Notes under the pieces: generated by a model
The model's database searches: none
The model's input: only the letters and a program-made list of their open reading frames with translations
Told to the model about the DNA's origin: nothing
Source: Methanomassiliicoccaceae archaeon
GTDB lineage: Archaea > Thermoplasmatota > Thermoplasmata > Methanomassiliicoccales > Methanomethylophilaceae
Reading direction: 5' to 3'
DNA length: 36,489 nt
Assembly (NCBI GenBank): GCA_016281925.1
Contig: JAEEJP010000049.1
Location: 1-36,489 of the forward strand
Program-made: the position numbers and the translations under genes
Shown here: piece after piece, positions 1-26,882 of the stretch
Layout: every line of letters begins with the position of its first letter
Position numbering within the stretch: the first letter of the stretch is position 1

Positions 1-582
1 GAACCTTTCGACGGTTTTTATGATGTCCCTGTCGAAAAGCTCGGTGGTGTCGTTCCTGACCCCTCCGATACGGGGGTAGTTGGTGGTCATCCTGGCTCCG
101 CAGAGCTTGACGTTGAGGTCCAGGAAGAATTCCCTCTCCCTCATGCACCAGAGGAACACGGTGAGGCTTCCGAGGTCGGTTCCGACCGCGGCGAGCCACA
201 TCAGGTGCGAGTTGATGCGGTTGCATTCGTCGGCGACGATCCTGATGTATTTCGCTTTCTCCGGGATGTCGATCCCGAGGGCTTTCTCGACGGTCATGCA
301 ATAAAGATGGGAATAGGTCATCGAAGCGGCGTAGCAGAGACGGTCGGCCATGGGGACTATCTTGGGATAGGTCCTGCTCTCGGTCTCTTTCTCCCAGCCG
401 CGGTGAAGGTATCCGACGATAGGCTCGGCGTCGACGACTATCTCTCCGTCGATCTGGACCTTGAGAGTCCAGAGACCGTGGGAGAACGGGTGCTGAGGAC
501 CCATGATGACCCACATCTTGTCGGTTTCCATCCTTTTGATGTTGTCTTCGGCCTCCAATACGGGCACGATAGAATCTGTCAT
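1..582 (-). CDS. fpoD: FpoD/NuoD-like subunit of F420H2 dehydrogenase-type complex (3' end off window)
   Basis: Partial gene: the ATG is at 582 and 194 codons are visible before the window edge. It corresponds to the 49-kDa subunit of complex I, which packs against FpoB near cluster N2 in the membrane-extrinsic arm. Seen here are MGPQHPFSHG near residue 27 (family GPQHPSTHG) and GYLHRGWEK (family GYLHRGxEK), plus the hydrogenase-like core with conserved CNRINSH. It follows fpoC with a 2-base gap in the order A-B-C-D, so it belongs to a co-transcribed fpo cluster. In Methanomassiliicoccales this complex is known to lack the FpoF input module; that cannot be judged from this window. Fpo rather than Nuo is inferred from the archaeal methanogen context. 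Confidence 0.93.
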   Translation of the reverse strand, partial: MTDSIVPVLEAEDNIKRMETDKMWVIMGPQHPFSHGLWTLKVQIDGEIVVDAEPIVGYLHRGWEKETESRTYPKIVPMADRLCYAASMTYSHLYCMTVEKALGIDIPEKAKYIRIVADECNRINSHLMWLAAVGTDLGSLTVFLWCMREREFFLDLNVKLCGARMTTNYPRIGGVRNDTTELFDRDIIKTVERF

Positions 583-584
583 TT

Positions 585-1049
585 TCACTCGGACCCCCTG
601 AGCTTATAGGATTTCCTGAACGGGAAGAACTCGTAGGTCTTGGGCGTGAGAAGCCTCTCGAGCTTGGGGTGGTTGTCGAACACGATGCCGAAAAGCTCCC
701 AGGTCTCCCTCTCATGCCAGTTCGCGCCTTCCCATATGGGGGTGACGGAATCGATGTGGAGGTCGTCCGCGGGTATGTCGGCGGTCAATTCGATGCAGGT
801 TCCCGTGTAGTAGTTGGTCAGGATGTACACCGTGGACATGTGGTCGACGTAGTCGATGCCCATCACGATCGAGCAGTGCTCGAATGTGAGTATGTCGTGG
901 ACGTACTTGCAGACCTCGAAGATGTGCTCCCTGGGGACCTTGGCGTGGACCCTTCTCGTGGCGGTCTTGGTGACTTCCACATAGGGGAACTTTTTGGCGA
1001 AAGCTTTGGCGATCTCTTCGACGGAGGGTTTCTGGATGACTTCGTCCAT
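585..1049 (-). CDS. fpoC: FpoC/NuoC-like subunit (30-kDa subunit family)
   Basis: A 154-residue protein of the complex I 30-kDa family. The diagnostic motif is at the C-terminus: WHERETWELFGIVF followed by DNHPKLERLL, matching the family pattern ERExxDlfGixfxgHPdLrRiL. The start chosen is ATG 1049 (MDEVIQKPSV). The frame stays open further upstream, but that stretch lies inside fpoB and its translation is arginine-rich shadow sequence. It sits between fpoB (stop at 1052) and fpoD (start at 582), so the three are clearly one operon. Function is inferred from family membership: a structural peripheral-arm subunit without cofactors. Confidence 0.93.
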   Translation of the reverse strand: MDEVIQKPSVEEIAKAFAKKFPYVEVTKTATRRVHAKVPREHIFEVCKYVHDILTFEHCSIVMGIDYVDHMSTVYILTNYYTGTCIELTADIPADDLHIDSVTPIWEGANWHERETWELFGIVFDNHPKLERLLTPKTYEFFPFRKSYKLRGSE

Positions 1050-9518: not shown

Positions 9519-10330
9519 ATCTCCTGGACTCCTCGAAGATCCGATCGGCGGACCAGGACCTCGGGCGAGAACCCCAAATCCAGGATTCCTTCGAGGACTT
9601 CCCTGACATTCCGGGCTTCTCTGCGCTCCGATTCCGCGTCCATCAGGCCGCCTTCCCTGCGCTCGCACATATGCCAGGTATGGTCGGCCAGCATCATGTA
9701 GCCGCCGGATTCTTCCGCCATGCGGATGTAATCCCCGGGCGGGCGCCTGCCTTCGTGCATCGGCCACAGATATGCGGCTATGGTCTTGCCGGATCCGTCG
9801 CGGGATTTCGGGACAGGATACTCGGTGATGCCGCAGGCTACGGCATGCGGAGCGCACCCCGCATAAGCGTATTCCGACGAGTCGGCGGATATGCCGAGCT
9901 TTCCCAGGACCGGCAGAGCGCTCTCCGGAAGGGCCATATAAGGGGCTCTGAAGCAGGAAGGGCGGGAAACGCGGTCGGAAACGGCCCGGCATCCCTCCGA
10001 AAGAATGGCTTCGATGTCTTCCCCGGAAAGCCGGATCCCCGGCCCGGCCCCGGTCAGATCCTCGTGGTCGTAGCCGTGGAACCCGATGCAGTGCCCGGAC
10101 AGGCATGAGCAGTCGGTCTCCTCGGCGGTGCGGCCCTCGACGAAGAAGGTTGCTTTCATGCCTATGCCGTCGAGGATCTCCAGGATCGTCCTGAGGCCTC
10201 TCTCCGAGGATGAGAAACGGGGCGCCGTCCCTTGGCCCCTGTCCAGAGAGCCGGCCCCGATGCGCCCCGGCACCGGGATGTTGGCGTCCCGGTCCGCATC
10301 CACGGTGAAATAGAGCTTCTTCCCGCTCAT
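9502..10330 (-). CDS. Polysaccharide deacetylase-family protein (3' end appears frameshifted)
   Basis: A NodB-homology domain protein of about 275 residues. Motifs: YFTVDADRD (catalytic and metal Asp), MKATFFVEGRTAEE, IGFHGYDHEDL (metal His pair), CFRAPYMALPES, and a late YMMLADHTWHM. No signal peptide is seen, so it probably works in the cytoplasm, perhaps on a sugar or N-acyl metabolite. The ATG at 10330 overlaps the AMP phosphorylase TGA (ATGA), tying it to the AMP-pathway operon, where its role is unclear. In the present frame it has no stop and enters pncB (open to 9005). A 1-base shift near 9508-9515 gives the tandem TAA TAG at 9504-9499; the end given here assumes that. Confidence 0.78.
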
Positions 10331-11838
10331 CTCGCGGTCAGAGGCGATACCCTCTTTATGAGCATCCCCTCGATGTCCATCGGCTGGTATTTCATGGCGG
10401 TCTCCTTCGCGCGCTTGAGCTTGGCCTCGTTGTCGGCGTAGATTGTGAGGAGGACCTCGCCTTCCTCGACCCTCTGGCCCTTCTTCTTGGCGAAGAGCAG
10501 GCCTGCGCCCTTGTCCGACGGGGCCCCGGCGGCCTTGGCGATGGCCACGATGTCCTTGTTCTTTATCGCGTGGACATATCCTGATTTGGGGGAGCGGAGC
10601 TCGTAGCTGAACTTCCCGGGCTTGAGGTCCTCGGATTTCAGATCCGGGCGGCCGCCCTGGGCCACTACGATCTCCATGAACTTGCGGTATGCCTCGCCGG
10701 AATTCAGGATCTCCTTCGCCTTCGCCGACCCGTTGGGTATGCCGGCGACCTCCAGGATGATCCCCGCGCAGTCGCAGGCCTTCTCTATGACGGCAGCGGG
10801 ATGGGTGTTGCCCTCGAGGATGCTTATGCATTCCCTGGCCTCCAGGTTCGGCCCTACGGCGTAGCCCACCGGCTGGTCGGCGTACGTTATTGCGCATTCC
10901 ACATGCATCCCGATCCTCTCGCCCAGCTCCATCAGGTCTTTCGCGTACCTTTTGGCGTCCTCGAGGGTCGGGACTTTGGTGCCGGCTCCGGTGGGTATGT
11001 CGACCACCAGGTGCGTCGCGCCTATGGCGAGCTTCTTGCTCATGATCGAGGCGAGCATCTGCGCGCGGGGGTTGATGCCCAGCGGGTGCTCCACTTTGAT
11101 GACCAGATCGTCCACCGGGGCGAGGTTCATAGATCCTCCCCAGGAGAATACCCCTCCGACCTCCTGCGTTATCTCTTTCAGGGACTCGGCGTCTATCTCC
11201 ACGTTGCAGAACGTCTCCACGAAATCCGAGGTCCCGCAGGCGCTGCTGATGGCGCGCGAGGAGGTCTTGGGTATCATGATCCCGGCCGCGGCGACTATGG
11301 ACACGACAATGGGTGTGATCTTGTTCCCGGGAACCCCTCCGAGGCTGTGGAAATCGAACACGGGGGCGCTGTCGAACTTTATCATGTCGCCGGTCTCCGC
11401 CATCGCCACCGTGAAATCGGCTATCTCGGAGATGTCCATGCCGTTGATGTATAGGGAAGTCAGCCATGCCGAGATCTCAATCTTGGACAGCCTGTTCTCG
11501 AGGATGTCCTCCACGATCGACCTGATCTCCTCCTTGCTGAGCTTCTCGCCGTCCATCTTCTTCCTTATAGAGCGGACTGAATCCGGCTTGGAGGCGTATG
11601 TGACGTTGATGACGTCCCCGTCATGGATGCCGCATTTGAGGGCCACGGACTCCGACATGGCCAGAGTCCCTTTCTCGATCACCGTATCCGAATGCGATAC
11701 GAGAACGATCATCGGCTTGGGCCCGGCAAGGTTCACGCGGTCCCCTTCCTGCACGCCTATGTCGGCGCAGTCGGCATCGTGGATGAGGACCGTCGGCTCG
11801 GACGAGTCCACGTCATAGGTCCTTGCGATGAGCTTCAT
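10327..11838 (-). CDS. deoA: AMP phosphorylase (archaeal DeoA-family)
   Basis: A 503-residue enzyme, the standard length of archaeal AMP phosphorylases, converting NMP plus phosphate to free base and ribose-1,5-bisphosphate. Visible are the archaeal ~85-residue N-terminal domain, then the thymidine phosphorylase-like core with FHSLGGVPGNKITPI, IPKTSSRAISSACGT, LVVDIPTGAGTK and a C-terminal barrel-sandwich domain (YELRSPKSGYVHAI). ATG 11838 is chosen over 11850 because it overlaps the RuBisCO stop as ATGA. It is the first enzyme of the AMP pathway, and the next two enzymes are encoded just upstream in the same operon. Confidence 0.95.
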   Translation of the reverse strand: MKLIARTYDVDSSEPTVLIHDADCADIGVQEGDRVNLAGPKPMIVLVSHSDTVIEKGTLAMSESVALKCGIHDGDVINVTYASKPDSVRSIRKKMDGEKLSKEEIRSIVEDILENRLSKIEISAWLTSLYINGMDISEIADFTVAMAETGDMIKFDSAPVFDFHSLGGVPGNKITPIVVSIVAAAGIMIPKTSSRAISSACGTSDFVETFCNVEIDAESLKEITQEVGGVFSWGGSMNLAPVDDLVIKVEHPLGINPRAQMLASIMSKKLAIGATHLVVDIPTGAGTKVPTLEDAKRYAKDLMELGERIGMHVECAITYADQPVGYAVGPNLEARECISILEGNTHPAAVIEKACDCAGIILEVAGIPNGSAKAKEILNSGEAYRKFMEIVVAQGGRPDLKSEDLKPGKFSYELRSPKSGYVHAIKNKDIVAIAKAAGAPSDKGAGLLFAKKKGQRVEEGEVLLTIYADNEAKLKRAKETAMKYQPMDIEGMLIKRVSPLTAR

Positions 11839-13070
11839 TTCGATCCCCACATCGCAAGGGCTTTGGCAAGCTCCTCATGGTCTTTCGCGTACTCCTCCGC
11901 GGGTATGCCTAGGAAAGCGGCGTCCACGGCCTGGCTCATGGCTTTGGCCCCGCCGACGACTCCGTCCGGGTGGCCTGCGACCCCGCCTCCCGCCTGTATC
12001 TGGACGTTCATCCCGGCGCGGCCGGTGATGTCGGATACGATTCCCGGATGCACCCCCCCGGAGCACACCGGCATGACGGTCTTGTAGGGCACATCGTCAC
12101 CCAGGCATGCGGCGAGATTCCCGCCGTCGTGGGCTCCCGCTGACATCTTGCCGGCGCCGAGGGTGCCTATGTGCAGGGCGTCGCCTCCGCACATACGGAC
12201 AAGTTTTGTGATCGGAAGCATGGCGATCCCGTGGAGGGGATCTTTGGTGAAAGCCCCGTGCATAGTCCTGTGCACATGGATCGGGACTTTGATGGAGGGA
12301 TCTTCGGCAAGAGCCTGGACCGCGCCGAAACCGCAGGTGATGACGTCGACCATAATCTGCTTGGCCCCCCACTCCTGGACCTGCTCCGCCAGCTCGACGA
12401 TCCTGTCGCCGCGGGTGCTGACGTTGATGGCGTGGACCATCAGGTGGCCCTCCTCTTCGAGAGTGTCCAACGCTTCGGCGACCGCCACCGTCCTCTCGTC
12501 TATGGGGCAGAAAGGCTGGTCGACGAGGGTCTCGTCGTCTTTGGAGTTGGTGAGCCCTCCGGATCCCGCCTCATAGACGTATTCGGCGGTCTTTTCGGGG
12601 GAGAGCCCGATCTTCGGCTTGACTATGGTCCCGACCAGAGGCTTCTCGGGGCGCCCAAGGATTTCTCTGAGCCCGTCAGCGCCGAATTTCGGGCCTTTGA
12701 ACTGCGATGTGATGCTTTTCGGGAACGAAACGTCCTCCAGCCTGACCCCTTTGAGGGCGCCCAGGCCGAACAGGTTCCCTGCGATGACGCTGAGTATCTG
12801 GGGGACCGAGCCGACTTCGATGCTGAAATCCTCGGCGGGATATTCGACGGTGATCATATCCCCCTCGATTCCAGTGACCCTCGCGCCGAGGGAATCGAAG
12901 ATGTCCCTGTCCAGCGTGGATATCCCGGTCCAAGTCCCTGTGGACTGCTCCGCCGCTATGGCTTCGGCGGCCTTCTCCATCGTAAGGTCCGTCGTCACGC
13001 GGTATTTGCAAACGACATACTCGCTGGGGTCTTCCGGCTCCCCGAGATGCAGATAAGAATAGCTTTCCAT
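11835..13070 (-). CDS. rbcL: Form III ribulose-bisphosphate carboxylase large subunit
   Basis: Carboxylates ribulose-1,5-bisphosphate to two 3-phosphoglycerate as the last step of AMP salvage. Catalytic elements seen: GTIVKPKIGL (first Lys), GGLTNSKDDE (the Lys to be carbamylated with the metal acids), HVHRTMHGAFT, loop 6 HIGTLGAGKMS, and the phosphate-binding CSGGVHPG and AGGGVAGHPDG. The TNSKDDETL variant differs from the more usual DLVKDDEN. ATG 13070 has AAAGGAGTGAGG eight bases upstream, a strong ribosome-binding site; a GTG at 13079 that overlaps the previous stop (GTGA) is the alternative. No phosphoribulokinase is seen nearby, so a Calvin cycle is not implied. Length, 411 residues, is slightly short for form III. 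Confidence 0.95.
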   Translation of the reverse strand: MESYSYLHLGEPEDPSEYVVCKYRVTTDLTMEKAAEAIAAEQSTGTWTGISTLDRDIFDSLGARVTGIEGDMITVEYPAEDFSIEVGSVPQILSVIAGNLFGLGALKGVRLEDVSFPKSITSQFKGPKFGADGLREILGRPEKPLVGTIVKPKIGLSPEKTAEYVYEAGSGGLTNSKDDETLVDQPFCPIDERTVAVAEALDTLEEEGHLMVHAINVSTRGDRIVELAEQVQEWGAKQIMVDVITCGFGAVQALAEDPSIKVPIHVHRTMHGAFTKDPLHGIAMLPITKLVRMCGGDALHIGTLGAGKMSAGAHDGGNLAACLGDDVPYKTVMPVCSGGVHPGIVSDITGRAGMNVQIQAGGGVAGHPDGVVGGAKAMSQAVDAAFLGIPAEEYAKDHEELAKALAMWGSK

Positions 13071-13075
13071 TTTCC

Positions 13076-14005
13076 TCACTCCTTTGCGAAGACCGATCCG
13101 CCCAGCTGCCTGACCATGACGTCATAGACCGATCCGGGGGAGATCATGCCGGCCTCCGTGATTATTGCGTCTATGTACTTCCCGGGCGTGCTGTCGAACA
13201 CGGGATTGAACACTTTGACCTGATCGGGCACTTCGCCCGGCTTCACCACTTCGGAGATGTCTCTCTCCTCTATGGTGACCATGTCGCCGAATATCGTCAT
13301 CGGCGAGAACTTGTACGTCTCGGCGCAGACATAGAACGGCACCCTCCTCTCTTCGGCGGCGAGAGCCAGCTGGGAGGTTCCGATCTTGTTGATCAGGACT
13401 CCGTCGGACGTTATCGTGTCGGCGCCGACGAAGACTTTGTCGATCCTTTTCATGACGCTGCGGACGGCGCTGTCTATCACCAGCGTGACGTCGATGCCCG
13501 ATTCGGCCAGATCCGTCACGGTCAGGATGCCCTGCCTCCAGGGGCGGGATTCGGTGGCGTACACCTTTATGCTCTTCCCTTGGCGGTGCGCCTCTTTTAT
13601 GACCCCCAAAGCGGCGCTGCTGTTGCAGTGCGTCAGAATGGTATCTCCTTCGCGTATCCTTTTAGCGCCTATAGAAGCGATGGTCTGGACCGCTTTCGAC
13701 GACGATTCGACGAATCTCCTGGCGTTTGATTCCACGAGCGCGCGGGCTTCCTCCAGAGAAGATGCTCCGTCCGCGCCCCTCACGGCCGATTGCACCCCGT
13801 TCCACAGGGATACCGCCGTCGGCCTGGAAGAAATCATCCTGTCTGCCGCAGACTTCAGATCGGCGAGGAAATCCTCCAGACTTCCCCCGCGATAAGAGCC
13901 CGCGAATTCACCTATGGCCGATGCCCCTGCGCGGGCTATCTTCCCGGCGCCGCGTATGGTCATGTCGGCAATCTGTCTGGACGTGTCCTCGATGATGTCT
14001 GCCAC
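13076..14005 (-). CDS. Ribose-1,5-bisphosphate isomerase (eIF2B-alpha family)
   Basis: A 309-residue member of the eIF-2B alpha/MtnA superfamily. With RuBisCO and AMP phosphorylase as direct neighbours, the assignment as the archaeal isomerase of ribose-1,5-bisphosphate to ribulose-1,5-bisphosphate is firm. Motifs include ILTHCNSSAALGV (catalytic Cys region), VYATESRPWRQG, KVFVGADTITSDGVLINKIG and FSPMTIFGDMVTIEER. The start is GTG 14005, about 25 bases from a TATA box, so the mRNA is probably leaderless with a GTG start. It is the first gene of the AMP-pathway operon. Confidence 0.92.
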   Translation of the reverse strand: MADIIEDTSRQIADMTIRGAGKIARAGASAIGEFAGSYRGGSLEDFLADLKSAADRMISSRPTAVSLWNGVQSAVRGADGASSLEEARALVESNARRFVESSSKAVQTIASIGAKRIREGDTILTHCNSSAALGVIKEAHRQGKSIKVYATESRPWRQGILTVTDLAESGIDVTLVIDSAVRSVMKRIDKVFVGADTITSDGVLINKIGTSQLALAAEERRVPFYVCAETYKFSPMTIFGDMVTIEERDISEVVKPGEVPDQVKVFNPVFDSTPGKYIDAIITEAGMISPGSVYDVMVRQLGGSVFAKE

Positions 14006-14027
14006 GGGACGAGAATCATTATCCTCG

Positions 14028-14036
14028 ATTATATAA
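14028..14036 (-). promoter_or_regulatory. TATA box of the AMP-pathway operon
   Basis: Minus-strand GTTATATAATC, about 27 bases before the GTG start of the isomerase. The spacing predicts a leaderless or nearly leaderless transcript for the four-gene operon. Confidence 0.6.
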
Positions 14037-14124
14037 CAAACGGGAAAAGCCCCAAAAGCACATGCGAAGAACAGAGGAAGGGGTTTGGGAAAAGGTTTGG
14101 CATGTCAACTCAGATCGACCGAAC

Positions 14125-14751
14125 TCACATGTTCATGCCTTCCTTCACATCCTTGTTGAAGAGAAGGCAGACCATGAAGATGCAGATGATGAGGTTGGCG
14201 ATGGTGATCAGCATGTTGGCCAGATAGACGAGGCTGAAGTTTCCGATACCGATAATCGCTGAGACGAGAGCGAAAAGGTTGGCGAGAACTCCGAGGGCGA
14301 ACAGGATGACGAGGATGAACCAGATGACCCTGTCGAGATTGTCCTTCTTTCCGTCGTTGATCCTTCCGGCGATGGCGATGATGATGATACCGATGATTAT
14401 GGCGATGGCGAGACCGGCAAGGGCCAGGAACACATCTTTGTTGGCCGCGGTCGCATCCTCATAGGAGTTCCAGAGTCCGAAGACGGCGTTGATGATGATA
14501 CCGAGTCCAGCAAGCTTGACGTAGGTAGCAAGTATGTCGAGTTTGTTCGTGATTTCAGCGTTCCTGACCTTCACTCCGAACGCGAAGTACAGGATGGCAA
14601 CGATTATGGGTCCGATAGCGGCGACTGCCGTAGGCCCGTCGATGCCGTCGGTCAGGGCCCCGACGAGAGAGGCGACACCCAGTATGAACTGGATGGCACC
14701 GATCACGATAAGGGCCGTGCCGAGAGTTTTGTTGTCGTCGAAGAATGACAT
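14125..14751 (-). CDS. Six-helix membrane protein of unknown function
   Basis: A 208-residue protein I do not recognise. Hydrophobic segments lie at about residues 11-33, 39-61, 74-94, 107-128, 141-166 and 172-197, so about six transmembrane helices with very short loops. The two longest loops hold charged motifs (KVRNAEITNKLD and GRINDGKKDNLDR). No catalytic motif or Cys pair is visible. It stands alone, with its own AT-rich promoter region in which the TATA box is framed by an inverted repeat, so it may be individually regulated. Codon use is more AT-rich at third positions than in its neighbours. Confidence 0.8.
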   Translation of the reverse strand: MSFFDDNKTLGTALIVIGAIQFILGVASLVGALTDGIDGPTAVAAIGPIIVAILYFAFGVKVRNAEITNKLDILATYVKLAGLGIIINAVFGLWNSYEDATAANKDVFLALAGLAIAIIIGIIIIAIAGRINDGKKDNLDRVIWFILVILFALGVLANLFALVSAIIGIGNFSLVYLANMLITIANLIICIFMVCLLFNKDVKEGMNM

Positions 14752-14758
14752 AACTTAT

Positions 14759-14787
14759 GTTAGAACAAATAAGTTTATAATTCTAAC
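14759..14787 (-). promoter_or_regulatory. TATA box flanked by a perfect inverted repeat (possible operator)
   Basis: The arms GTTAGAA (14759-14765) and TTCTAAC (14781-14787) surround the minus-strand TATA element TTATAAACTT that lies about 25 bases before the ATG of the membrane protein. A factor bound to both arms would block TBP. A second, weaker pair, TGTTCT (14828-14833) and AGAACA (14848-14853), lies upstream in the same AT-rich spacer. Confidence 0.45.
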
Positions 14788-14914
14788 GGTCCTGATTCCC
14801 CAATAATCCAGAAATTGATGAAAATACTGTTCTATATTGTTGTTTACAGAACATAAATAAACATCAACTTACTATATGATGCCCGACAAAAACGTTTATT
14901 TTACCTGAAAGTAT

Positions 14915-14941
14915 TTATTGGAAGTATAGGTCAAATACCTA
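14915..14941 (-). other. In-frame UAG and readthrough extension of rnc (candidate pyrrolysine codon)
   Basis: The UAG at 14941-14939 is followed by seven sense codons (GTA TTT GAC CTA TAC TTC CAA) and TAA at 14917-14915. The extended tail, ARRIAG-x-VFDLYFQ, lines up with the final helix of RNase III domains. Nearly every other gene in the window ends in TGA, two end in TAA, and none other in TAG. Confidence 0.55.
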
Positions 14942-15415
14942 ACCCGCTATGCGGCGAGCTTCTTCCATGCCATAAACAAGATAAACAGCGGCCAAAACGG
15001 CTTCGAAAGAATCTGCGCGCATGTTCTCCTCCACGACCGCTTCCCCGCGCTTGGTCCGGTGACCTCCCCCGACCCTCATGATTCCGTCGATACCGAGACC
15101 GATGGAAAGCACCTTCTCAGATATGCTGTGATTAGAGACTATCGTCTGCTTGAAATCCGTCATCGCGCCCTCCTTCAGTTCGGAATTCCGGTATACCGCT
15201 TCGCAGGCGATGAATTCCAGGACGGCATCCCCCAGAAACTCCAGCCGCTCGTACGACTCCGCTTCCTCGGACGCATCCGCGGCCTCGTTGGAATAGCTGT
15301 CATGGGTCAGCGCGGCGCAGAACAGATCGACGTCGGGTCTGCTCAGGCCTCTGTAGCAGAACGGGGGTTTCGCGAGGAATTCGCGGACTCTCATCTCGAA
15401 ATCCGATTCGGGCAT
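14939..15415 (-). CDS. rnc: Ribonuclease III catalytic domain, no dsRNA-binding domain; ends at UAG
   Basis: A 158-residue RNase III domain. The signature ERLEFLGDAVLEF is near residue 55 and the second catalytic acid pair sits in ENMRADSFEAVLAAVYL near residue 140. There is no dsRBD, as in Mini-III enzymes, and RNase III is uncommon in archaea. The gene stops at TAG (14941-14939) in the middle of the last helix, after GMEEARRIAG. Reading on gives V-F-D-L-Y-F-Q and then TAA at 14917-14915, which restores the usual ARRxxxxxF-type helix. It is divergent from the gene at 15546. Start ATG 15415 (MPESDF); an internal ATG at 15394 is possible. Confidence 0.9.
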   Translation of the reverse strand: MPESDFEMRVREFLAKPPFCYRGLSRPDVDLFCAALTHDSYSNEAADASEEAESYERLEFLGDAVLEFIACEAVYRNSELKEGAMTDFKQTIVSNHSISEKVLSIGLGIDGIMRVGGGHRTKRGEAVVEENMRADSFEAVLAAVYLVYGMEEARRIAG

Positions 15416-23027: not shown

Positions 23028-26000
23028 ATGAGATGGAAAACAGCATTGATGGCGTTGTTCGCTTTGGTTATCGTGTCATCTGCGCTTTTAGCGGTATCCG
23101 ATGGGAATTCGGATGCCGACGCGCAGACTGCGGTCCCCGAACCGGACGGGGAAATCAAAACAGGCCAGACCGTAACAGTGAGGATCACGTCGGCAGAAGA
23201 AGGTATGATTTACAAATTCAAAGCCGACAGGGACGGGATCTTCAAATTCGAATCCTACGGAAACCAGGACACTTACGCGATCATCCTCGACCAATACGGG
23301 ACGATGGTGACGCGCGACGACGACAGCGGAAGCGGCAGGAACTTCAGATTCAGTCTGATCGCGGATGAAGGCGAGGTCTTCTACATCGCAACCACGCTCT
23401 ACACAGAGTCGGGGACCGGCAGCTTCACGATGGATGCGACCTACACAGGCGCATATTACAACGAACTGAAGACGGTGAATGTCACGAAACCCGGATCGTA
23501 CCTGCTGTTCGACAGCGGACTGACAGGCGACGAGGACTATGAACTGGACATCTTCGTCGATGAGAAGGAACACAGGAAGATAGGACGGTTCGACATGGGA
23601 TTCGAGCCGGAGAACGCCATCCTGACCGTATATGCCTACGACGTCGATGAGCAGTCCGGAGAAAGGGATGTCATCAAGCTCAGGGACCTCACCGACGAAA
23701 CCGAGACGGAATTGCCCGGGCAGTATCTCCACGGATCCGACGACGAATGGAGCACTTCCACCGTGCTGATAGACGGCAAATATCTGAAGAAAGGCCACTC
23801 CTACGCCATTTATGATTATGAGACGGAACCCGGATGGATAATCTGGATCAGGAACGTCTCCATCCAATTCTCCGGCGATCCCTACAATCTGGAGCTCAGC
23901 GCCGCCGTCTCCGGCACCGACGTCAGCCTGTCCCTCTCCGGAAAGCTCGCCCGCGGAACGTACGAAGTTGAGTACGGGATATACAGAACGGCCGACCTGG
24001 TGCACATCGCCACGATCAACAGCACAATCACCACGGATTCGGCAGGGAACTTCTCCGCCTCCGCGAAAAGCTCCATGGCCGGGAACTCCGCCGGCGTGTA
24101 CAAAGTCGATGCCTTGATCAGGACGGGGACCGCCCTGGTTACAACCGCCGGCTGCACGTTCAGCATGGACGGATATTCGATCAACTACAATCCGAACGGA
24201 GGATCCAACAACGTCCCGTCAGGCTCCACCTACGCCCCCGGAGACAAAGTCAAGGTGCTGTTCGACAAAATCCCGTCCAGAACCGGATATGCGTTCCTGG
24301 GATGGTCCGACAGCAAGACCGCGGCGGCCGCGAAATACACGGCAAACGGAACAGACACATTCACCATCACGAAGAACACCACGCTCTATGCCGTATGGCA
24401 GCAGTCCGACTTCGACGTTGGGACCGAGTTCACCGTCGGGAACCTCAGATACACCATGACGTCCGTGGATCCCGACCAGGCGTCGGTCACAGGCTATGTC
24501 TCGGGGCTGACTTCCGCCTCGATACCTGCCACAGTGACATACAAGAACCACAGCATAGCCGTGGTTTCGGTCGGTGAGAAGGCATTCTACGGATGCACGA
24601 CGCTCAAAACCCTCAGCGTATCCGCGCCTGCGATACTTCAGAAGGCGTTCGCCGGATGCACAGCGCTGACAACCGTCAAGCTGACCGGCGTGAAGAGCAT
24701 CGGCATGTATTCGTTCTACGGCTGCGAGGCGTTCGCTTCGGTCACGTTCGCGAAGGGCCTGACGGCTGTGGGAGCCTCTGCTTTCAACAAGATCCAGTTC
24801 TTCGACGGCGGAAATGCGGTTTCGGCTGCGAAAGACCTCGCCGGGAAGACGTTCACCGGCAAAGACGGCAGACTCACCAGCGGATCGGCGATAACCGTGG
24901 GGACCGAGTTCACCGTCAGCAACGTGAAATACACAGTCACGTCCGTCAGCCCAGCCTCGGCAAGCGCCACCGGCTTCGTATCCGGCATCAAAGCGGCATC
25001 CATCACGGCATCCGTGACATACAGCGGCCAATCCTTCGCGGTAGAATCCGTCGGCGAGAAAGCATTCTACGGATGCACTACGCTCACTTCCGCAAGCATA
25101 TCGGCTCCGGCTGTGCTTCAGAAGGCGTTCGCCGGATGCACGGCTCTGACCACCGTCAAGCTCACCGGCGTGAAGAGCATCGGAGCATACTCGTTCTTCG
25201 GCTGCGATGCCCTGACCTCGGTAGCTTTCGCCAAGGATCTGGCATCCGTCGGGGCTTCGTCCTTCAACAAAATCCAGTTCTTCGACGGCGGAAAAGCAGT
25301 ATCCGCGGCTAAAAGCCTCGCCGGAAAGACTTTCAAAGGCAGCGACGGAAAGCTGTATTACGGATCTTCGATAACCATAGGGACCGAGTTCACCGTCAGC
25401 AATGTGAAATACACAGTCACGTCCGTCAGCCCTACCTCTGCAAGCGCCACCGGCTTCGTATCCGGCATCAAAGCGGCATCCATCCCGGCATCCGTGACGT
25501 ATAACAGCCAGTCCTTCGCGGTAGAATCCGTCGGCGAGAAGGCTTTCTACGGATGTACGACTCTCGCTTCCGCTTCTGTTTCCGCGCCTTCGATACTTCA
25601 GAAAGCGTTCGCCGGATGCACGGCTCTGACCACCGTCAAGCTCACCGGAGTGAAGAGCATCGGAGCATACTCGTTCTTCGGCTGCGATGCCCTGACCTCG
25701 GTAGCTTTCGCCAAGGATCTGGCTTCTGTTGGGACCGCGGCATTCAGCAAAGTCCAATTCTTCGACAACGGAAAGTCGGTCTTGGCGACAGCCAAAAACC
25801 TCGCCGGGAAGACGTTCACCGGAAAGGACGGCAAGCTGTATTACGGCCCCGCAATCGCTCCGGGAACCGAATTCACCTCCTCCAGCATCAGATACAAGGT
25901 CGTTTCCGTGAATCCTGCGGCCGTGGATGCCGTCGGATACTCTTCCGGGATCAAATACCCGATCATCCCCGGGTCGGTCGCCTACAGCGGCATGACTTTC

Positions 26001-26882
26001 ACGGTGAGCTCCGTGGCCGAGAAAGCTTTTGCCGACTGCGCCACCGCGATCACCGTGAAGATCAGCGCTCCGACGATCGGCATGAAGGCTTTCGCCAACT
26101 GCACCGCCCTCAAGACGGTGAAGCTCCTGTCCTGCGAAAACATAGGCGCGTATGCGTTCTACGGGGACGGCGCGATATCGACCATTGAATTCTCGAAGGA
26201 TCTGAAATCGGCCGGGACATCCGCCTTCGGCAAACTGCAGTTCTCCAAGAACGGCAAGGACATATCCGCGGCCGCCGCCGACCTCGCCGGCAATGCGTTC
26301 ATCCTGTCCGGAGGCAAGCTGTGCGCCAAGGCACCCGAAGGGACCAGCGTCACCGTCGGCTCCCTCACCTATACGGTAACATCTGTGGCGCCGTACGAAG
26401 TCTCGGTCACAGGCTTCAAAGAAGGCCTGAAGAGCCTCACCGTCCCCGCATCCGTGTCCGTGTGGAAGCTTACCGCGGACGTGACTTCGATAGGCGACCA
26501 GGCTTTCCTCGGCTGCAAGACGCTGGCCACCGCCGACCTCGGCGACGTGAAATCCATAGGGTTCAAGGCCTTCGCAGGATGCACGGCGCTCAGAGCGGCC
26601 TGGATGTTCTCGGCCGAAAGCATCGGCGCCTACGCGTTCTACGGATGCAGCAAGATCACGGTCCTGGAGATCCCCGGCGTCAAAACTATAGGCGCCAGCG
26701 CATTCTCCGGATGCACCGGCCTTTCGTTCGCGTCCTTCTCCGGAGATCTGGCGGAAGTCGGCTCCAACGCCTTCTCCAAGGTCAAGTTCATGAAGGGAAC
26801 GGCCGAACTGACGGCCACAGCCAAGAACCTCGCCGGGAAGACGTTCGCCGGCGCTCCCGCCGTCCTTAAGCTCGTCTCCTGA
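23028..26882 (+). CDS. Giant secreted surface protein with BspA-type leucine-rich repeats
   Basis: A 1284-residue exported protein. Residues 1-~31 form a signal peptide (MRWKTALMALFALVIVSSALL) with a likely cleavage before the Asp-rich start. Residues ~40-135 resemble a prepeptidase C-terminal (PPC-like) beta domain. Residues ~383-459 are a Listeria-Bacteroides (InlB B-type) repeat: INYNPNGGSNN, RTGYAFLGWSD, TLYAVW. From residue 465 five copies of a ~160-residue unit follow, each with GTEFTV, EKAFYGC and AFAGCTAL-type BspA LRRs and an end motif DLAGKTF. No C-terminal membrane anchor is seen, so it may be secreted or held non-covalently. Start ATG 23028 fits the signal peptide and has GGGGGA upstream; the ~170-base leader after ATAAATC (22851) is long. 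Likely roles are adhesion or host and microbe contact, inferred from the families. Confidence 0.9.
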   Translation: MRWKTALMALFALVIVSSALLAVSDGNSDADAQTAVPEPDGEIKTGQTVTVRITSAEEGMIYKFKADRDGIFKFESYGNQDTYAIILDQYGTMVTRDDDSGSGRNFRFSLIADEGEVFYIATTLYTESGTGSFTMDATYTGAYYNELKTVNVTKPGSYLLFDSGLTGDEDYELDIFVDEKEHRKIGRFDMGFEPENAILTVYAYDVDEQSGERDVIKLRDLTDETETELPGQYLHGSDDEWSTSTVLIDGKYLKKGHSYAIYDYETEPGWIIWIRNVSIQFSGDPYNLELSAAVSGTDVSLSLSGKLARGTYEVEYGIYRTADLVHIATINSTITTDSAGNFSASAKSSMAGNSAGVYKVDALIRTGTALVTTAGCTFSMDGYSINYNPNGGSNNVPSGSTYAPGDKVKVLFDKIPSRTGYAFLGWSDSKTAAAAKYTANGTDTFTITKNTTLYAVWQQSDFDVGTEFTVGNLRYTMTSVDPDQASVTGYVSGLTSASIPATVTYKNHSIAVVSVGEKAFYGCTTLKTLSVSAPAILQKAFAGCTALTTVKLTGVKSIGMYSFYGCEAFASVTFAKGLTAVGASAFNKIQFFDGGNAVSAAKDLAGKTFTGKDGRLTSGSAITVGTEFTVSNVKYTVTSVSPASASATGFVSGIKAASITASVTYSGQSFAVESVGEKAFYGCTTLTSASISAPAVLQKAFAGCTALTTVKLTGVKSIGAYSFFGCDALTSVAFAKDLASVGASSFNKIQFFDGGKAVSAAKSLAGKTFKGSDGKLYYGSSITIGTEFTVSNVKYTVTSVSPTSASATGFVSGIKAASIPASVTYNSQSFAVESVGEKAFYGCTTLASASVSAPSILQKAFAGCTALTTVKLTGVKSIGAYSFFGCDALTSVAFAKDLASVGTAAFSKVQFFDNGKSVLATAKNLAGKTFTGKDGKLYYGPAIAPGTEFTSSSIRYKVVSVNPAAVDAVGYSSGIKYPIIPGSVAYSGMTFTVSSVAEKAFADCATAITVKISAPTIGMKAFANCTALKTVKLLSCENIGAYAFYGDGAISTIEFSKDLKSAGTSAFGKLQFSKNGKDISAAAADLAGNAFILSGGKLCAKAPEGTSVTVGSLTYTVTSVAPYEVSVTGFKEGLKSLTVPASVSVWKLTADVTSIGDQAFLGCKTLATADLGDVKSIGFKAFAGCTALRAAWMFSAESIGAYAFYGCSKITVLEIPGVKTIGASAFSGCTGLSFASFSGDLAEVGSNAFSKVKFMKGTAELTATAKNLAGKTFAGAPAVLKLVS
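24420..26882 (+). repeat. Five tandem ~480-bp coding repeats
   Basis: Units begin at 24420, 24900, 25380, 25863 and 26340 (480, 480, 483 and 477 bases, then the last). Units 2 and 3 are nearly identical at DNA level: over 25124-25243 against 25604-25723 I count one mismatch. Units 4 and 5 have diverged. The unit length and DNA identity point to recent duplication or gene conversion inside the gene. Confidence 0.95.

Follow-up and report, generated by a model that had tools for sequence, protein, structure and literature searches.

The tRNA-His guanylyltransferase of Methanosarcina reportedly gained a pyrrolysine residue by neutral evolution, a case said to have been studied experimentally by Heinemann et al. 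in 2009. Kivenson et al. (about 2025) are likewise said to have described archaea with a "Pyl code", which translate every TAG codon as pyrrolysine. The locus presented here belongs to a contig of 36,489 nt (JAEEJP010000049.1, assembly GCA_016281925.1) from a Methanomassiliicoccaceae archaeon; the whole contig is referred to below as the window, and its genome as G000. The gene concerned encodes an RNase III, which is an RNA-processing enzyme like the Methanosarcina guanylyltransferase, but a different protein from a different lineage. Sense use of TAG across the genome, as in the "Pyl code" archaea, would match the pattern in G000 and its neighbours, for which full reassignment is at most a possibility.

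A member of the same order, Candidatus Methanomethylophilus alvus, has 16 predicted pyrrolysine-containing proteins besides its methyltransferases (Borrel et al. 2014, PMC4153887, Table 7). There, as here, ordinary genes carry an in-frame TAG where their homologues exhibit sense codons, pylTSBCD is present, and TAG terminators are few (1.6% in Ca. M. alvus; PMC4153887). The kind of event that we describe is already known (Borrel et al. 2014, PMC4153887), and RNase III is new to that list: it does not appear in Table 7 of that study, whereas here its gene exhibits a TAG eight codons upstream of an in-frame TAA. Unlike the Ca. M. alvus set, the present data also include an in-frame TAG, in citrate synthase, that recurs in several members of the genus.

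The RNase III ORF (position 15415 to 14939, minus strand) begins with ATG and encodes 158 amino acids, the C-terminus of which (EEARRIAG) is directly followed by TAG; residues 1-158, which contain the RNase III domain, correspond to positions 14942..15415. The identity of the protein is supported by profile searches against PF14622 (85.4 bits, over the cut-off) and PF00636 (63 bits). The ERLEFLGD signature and the acidic catalytic residues (E56, E59, D63, D135 and E138) are all present, and all the catalytic residues lie upstream of the TAG. As a test for the bacterial class I enzyme, which has a C-terminal dsRNA-binding part, the TIGR02191 profile scored 103.9 bits against a cut-off of 166.25, and its match covers only positions 9-132 of 219; a profile search for a second domain gave no match to a double-stranded RNA-binding domain (dsRBD). 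The best matches in the PDB are the nuclease domains of bacterial RNase III. The window protein has the fold and the catalytic residues in common with the endonuclease domains of the Thermotoga maritima (1o0w) and Aquifex aeolicus (1jfz) enzymes, and it differs from bacterial RNase III in lacking a dsRBD and in carrying a UAG near its C-terminus. The initial annotation, made from the sequence alone, considered an archaeal RNase III without a dsRBD to be unusual. This architecture proved to be normal among the orthologues of the family, most of which are 152-175 aa long; we found nothing usable in the literature on archaeal RNase III lacking this domain.

The arrangement downstream of the ORF is as that annotation described it. 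The TAG (14939..14941, minus strand) is followed in frame by the codons GTA TTT GAC CTA TAC TTC CAA and TAA, that is, by a seven-residue tail VFDLYFQ (residues 160-166; 14918..14938) and a second stop (14915..14917). The accompanying statement that no other gene of the window ends with TAG holds for credible genes: in a codon-usage gene call, RNase III is the sole credible gene of the window with such an end, and the other ORF ending with TAG (205-609, plus strand) is antisense to nuo/fpo-type genes. No match to a defence system was found.

A search across the order found RNase III relatives in 81 of 147 genomes; for 59 sequences the alignment extends through the C-terminus. At the column of the TAG, the 58 other orthologues all exhibit a sense codon (E in 28, R in 10, D in 9, A in 5, K in 3, S in 2 and Q in 1). 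None of them stops at or before this column, and all extend at least three residues beyond it; termination at the site, which would have spoken against the readthrough proposed in the initial annotation, was thus not found. The site lies in the last helix, at a position that varies but mostly carries a charge. After it, the orthologues usually show three hydrophobic residues and then a variable tail, and the frame past the window's TAG continues to a C-terminus that aligns with theirs, so that VFDLYFQ is homologous to the C-terminus of the orthologues. What had been anticipated as a conserved V-F-D/E-L tail is reduced by this comparison to the short hydrophobic stretch. The closest species (genome G091), of which the RNase III protein is 89% identical, exhibits GAG at the TAG site and stops at the same TAA, without an indel. 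The mutation and its polarity are therefore apparent: GAG changed to TAG within a pre-existing frame whose ancestral terminator is the TAA, which is thus not a newly evolved back-up stop.

The genome also possesses the machinery for decoding UAG. A tRNA-Pyl with the anticodon CUA was identified with ARAGORN on contig C94. PylS, PylC and PylD scored over the cut-off of TIGR02367, TIGR03909 and TIGR03911, respectively, PylS being represented by its C-terminal domain; a search for the N-terminal PylS family was negative, as was to be expected, since the order lacks that domain. PylB is a fragment at a contig edge (208.7 bits, below the full-length cut-off). The methylamine methyltransferase MtmB contains an in-frame TAG spanned by PF05369 (762 bits). 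The pyl genes, the absence of which would have weakened the initial proposal, are thus all in the genome (pylT, pylS, pylB, pylC and pylD), together with a TAG-containing mtmB.

The use of UAG elsewhere was examined in 561 kb of G000 (a draft of 122 contigs), about 1.02 Mb of G091 and 400 kb of the more distant genome G135. In the 561-kb sample, in-frame TAGs are spanned by single Pfam domains in citrate synthase, TruA, ArcS (DUF5591), a HAD hydrolase and ATPgrasp_ST, against none of ten control junctions at TGA or TAA codons followed by sequence with a high coding score. The TAGs of MtmB, HAD (phosphatase), citrate synthase and the RNA polymerase subunit A'' are also present in G091. The RNA polymerase A'' gene (RpoA2; locus L104, contig C1, 17257-18771, minus strand) is colinear with distant relatives on either side of its TAG. 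The citrate synthase gene (L118, contig C16, 4283-5696, plus strand) reads LTRVSQVDGS-TAG-VVDGAKVQCPG, and its match contains one TAG, never TAA or TGA, also in G080, G084, G085 (two genes) and G092. Six-frame profile searches reading through all stops gave about 200 matches, and the stops inside them were ten TAG, no TAA and no TGA. The ten are distributed among RNase III (one), citrate synthase (seven, from six genus members), TruA (one) and an ABC transporter domain (one). If the three stops were equally likely, such an outcome would have a probability of about 2e-5, with the reservation that some of the seven citrate synthase cases depend on one another.

These counts bear on the possibility that a wrong base, introduced by sequencing or assembly of this metagenome-assembled draft, turned a true GAG into TAG. 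The difference is of one base and the draft is in 122 contigs, as such an error would have it; however, random errors would yield a mix of stops rather than TAG in ten of ten sampled cases, and several of the TAGs are common to two separately assembled species. We regard an error as very improbable. Other approaches were less discriminating. Raw TAG ends of high-scoring ORFs (17/312 in G000, 1/179 in G091) mix interrupted genes with antisense ORFs, a tblastn comparison of the G135 ORFs with the G000 sample returned 19 segments only, and the DNA past every stop, compared between G000 and G091, includes downstream genes and wrong-frame ORFs that are conserved too. At least one possible true TAG terminator was noted in G000 (C1:721-1260), a point against the readthrough reading; the G091 orthologue of this gene ends within one residue of it, with TGA. 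Taken at the level of sequence, the genome-wide use of TAG as a sense codon makes the insertion of pyrrolysine into the RNase III likely.

Between G000 and G091, the RNase III codons that changed upstream of the TAG comprise 57 synonymous and 17 nonsynonymous cases, which indicates that the gene is under purifying selection; pseudogene status is ruled out by this mostly synonymous divergence. The seven tail codons exhibit no synonymous and six nonsynonymous differences (Fisher p about 0.0003), and at the DNA level the tail is 67% identical, about the same as the intergenic sequence next to it (66%). The extreme C-terminus thus appears weakly constrained in this pair of genomes, and beyond its first three residues the tail is also variable among the orthologues. 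No synonymous bias was seen past the TAG in the G000-G091 comparison, for which seven codons provide little power. AlphaFold models of the 158-aa and the 166-aa forms have mean pLDDT values of 95.9 and 95.7, respectively. The last helix covers residues 150-157 in the former and 150-161 in the latter, where the final residues are less certain (pLDDT about 80); readthrough is thus predicted to add about one turn to this helix. Since both forms are predicted to fold equally well, readthrough does not complete the fold in the way that the initial annotation had supposed. Of its proposal of a pyrrolysine-containing or recoded RNase III, the insertion of the residue remains likely given the genome-wide use of TAG as sense, and the completion of the fold is not supported, nor is the conserved tail that it suggested looking for.

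The shortness of the extension, the absence of visible selection on the tail and the prediction that the 158-aa form folds equally well count against a functional readthrough. The lack of synonymous bias in the tail and the equal confidence of the shorter model, together with the location of every catalytic residue upstream, would also suit a genuine stop, that is, a recent nonsense mutation that removed eight non-essential residues and left a protein of 158 aa, with the TAA as a relic that contains leaky readthrough. A nearby downstream UAA or UGA is indeed said to contain unintended readthrough of UAG (review PMC9499178). We nevertheless consider a genuine stop unlikely, given that none of the 58 other orthologues ends so early, that the same genome reads TAG as sense in conserved genes, and that a terminator TAG would leak anyway in a cell decoding UAG.

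TAG codons are also found at other places in the RNase III genes of relatives. In G085, a genome of the same genus in which PylS is present, the gene (locus L032) exhibits a TAG in the middle of the protein, immediately ahead of the catalytic SYERLEFLGD motif, at a place occupied by E or P in other members of the genus; termination at this codon would destroy the enzyme. Four Pyl-encoding species of another genus, g14 (L045, L050, L052 and L053), have an RNase III that ends with TAG-[S/A]RI-TAA, and a further member of g14 (G120) has sense codons throughout; the TAG of this genus may be a near-terminal pyrrolysine codon, too. The RNase III of G090 exhibits a TAG followed by nine residues. Judging from these alignments, RNase III has gained TAG more than once among Pyl-encoding relatives, and the differing sites argue against a site-specific role of pyrrolysine. 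They also weigh on the notion of a regulated switch, by which the supply of methylamine and pyrrolysine would set the balance between 158-aa and 166-aa enzymes differing in activity or dimerisation. A published model has Pyl-tRNA and the release factor compete at UAG (PMC9499178), but orthologues do not share the UAG of the window, no selection is visible on the tail and the other RNase III genes have their TAGs elsewhere, so that we hold such a switch to be extremely improbable.

The explanation that we favour, and regard as probable, is a GAG to TAG change in an RNase III without a dsRBD, the UAG of which would be decoded, at least partly, as pyrrolysine. An ancestral GAG (Glu) near the 3' end of this ordinary gene would have mutated to TAG in a Methanomassiliicoccales host able to decode UAG with pyrrolysyl-tRNA. 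Ribosomes would then insert pyrrolysine at residue 159, with an efficiency that may be less than complete, and translation would end at the old TAA to give an RNase III of 166 aa. We infer that the substitution was most likely neutral. If so, an RNA-processing enzyme joins the short list of pyrrolysine proteins outside methylamine metabolism, and housekeeping genes of this family will be cut short or broken up by standard gene callers. A broader proposition, that UAG has been effectively reassigned to pyrrolysine in this subclade of the Methanomethylophilaceae and that RNase III, citrate synthase, TruA, ArcS and RNA polymerase A'' depend on its supply, is possible but rather doubtful to us. 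It would tie RNA processing and central functions to a modified amino acid whose known roles lie mainly in methylamine metabolism. The in-frame UAGs of citrate synthase, TruA and RNA polymerase A'' offer a direct test of the extent of UAG reassignment in these uncultured gut archaea.

The neighbourhood of the gene is shared in part with other genomes. Within positions 13076-15415 of the window, RNase III lies near a gene for ribose-1,5-bisphosphate isomerase (eIF2B-like), the signature of which adjoins RNase III in most of the relatives' loci. Genes for RuBisCO and AMP phosphorylase come next (10327-13079). Elsewhere in the window (23049-26882, plus strand), a protein of about 1300 aa exhibits BspA type repeats (GEKAFYGCTTL...) and is probably a surface protein.
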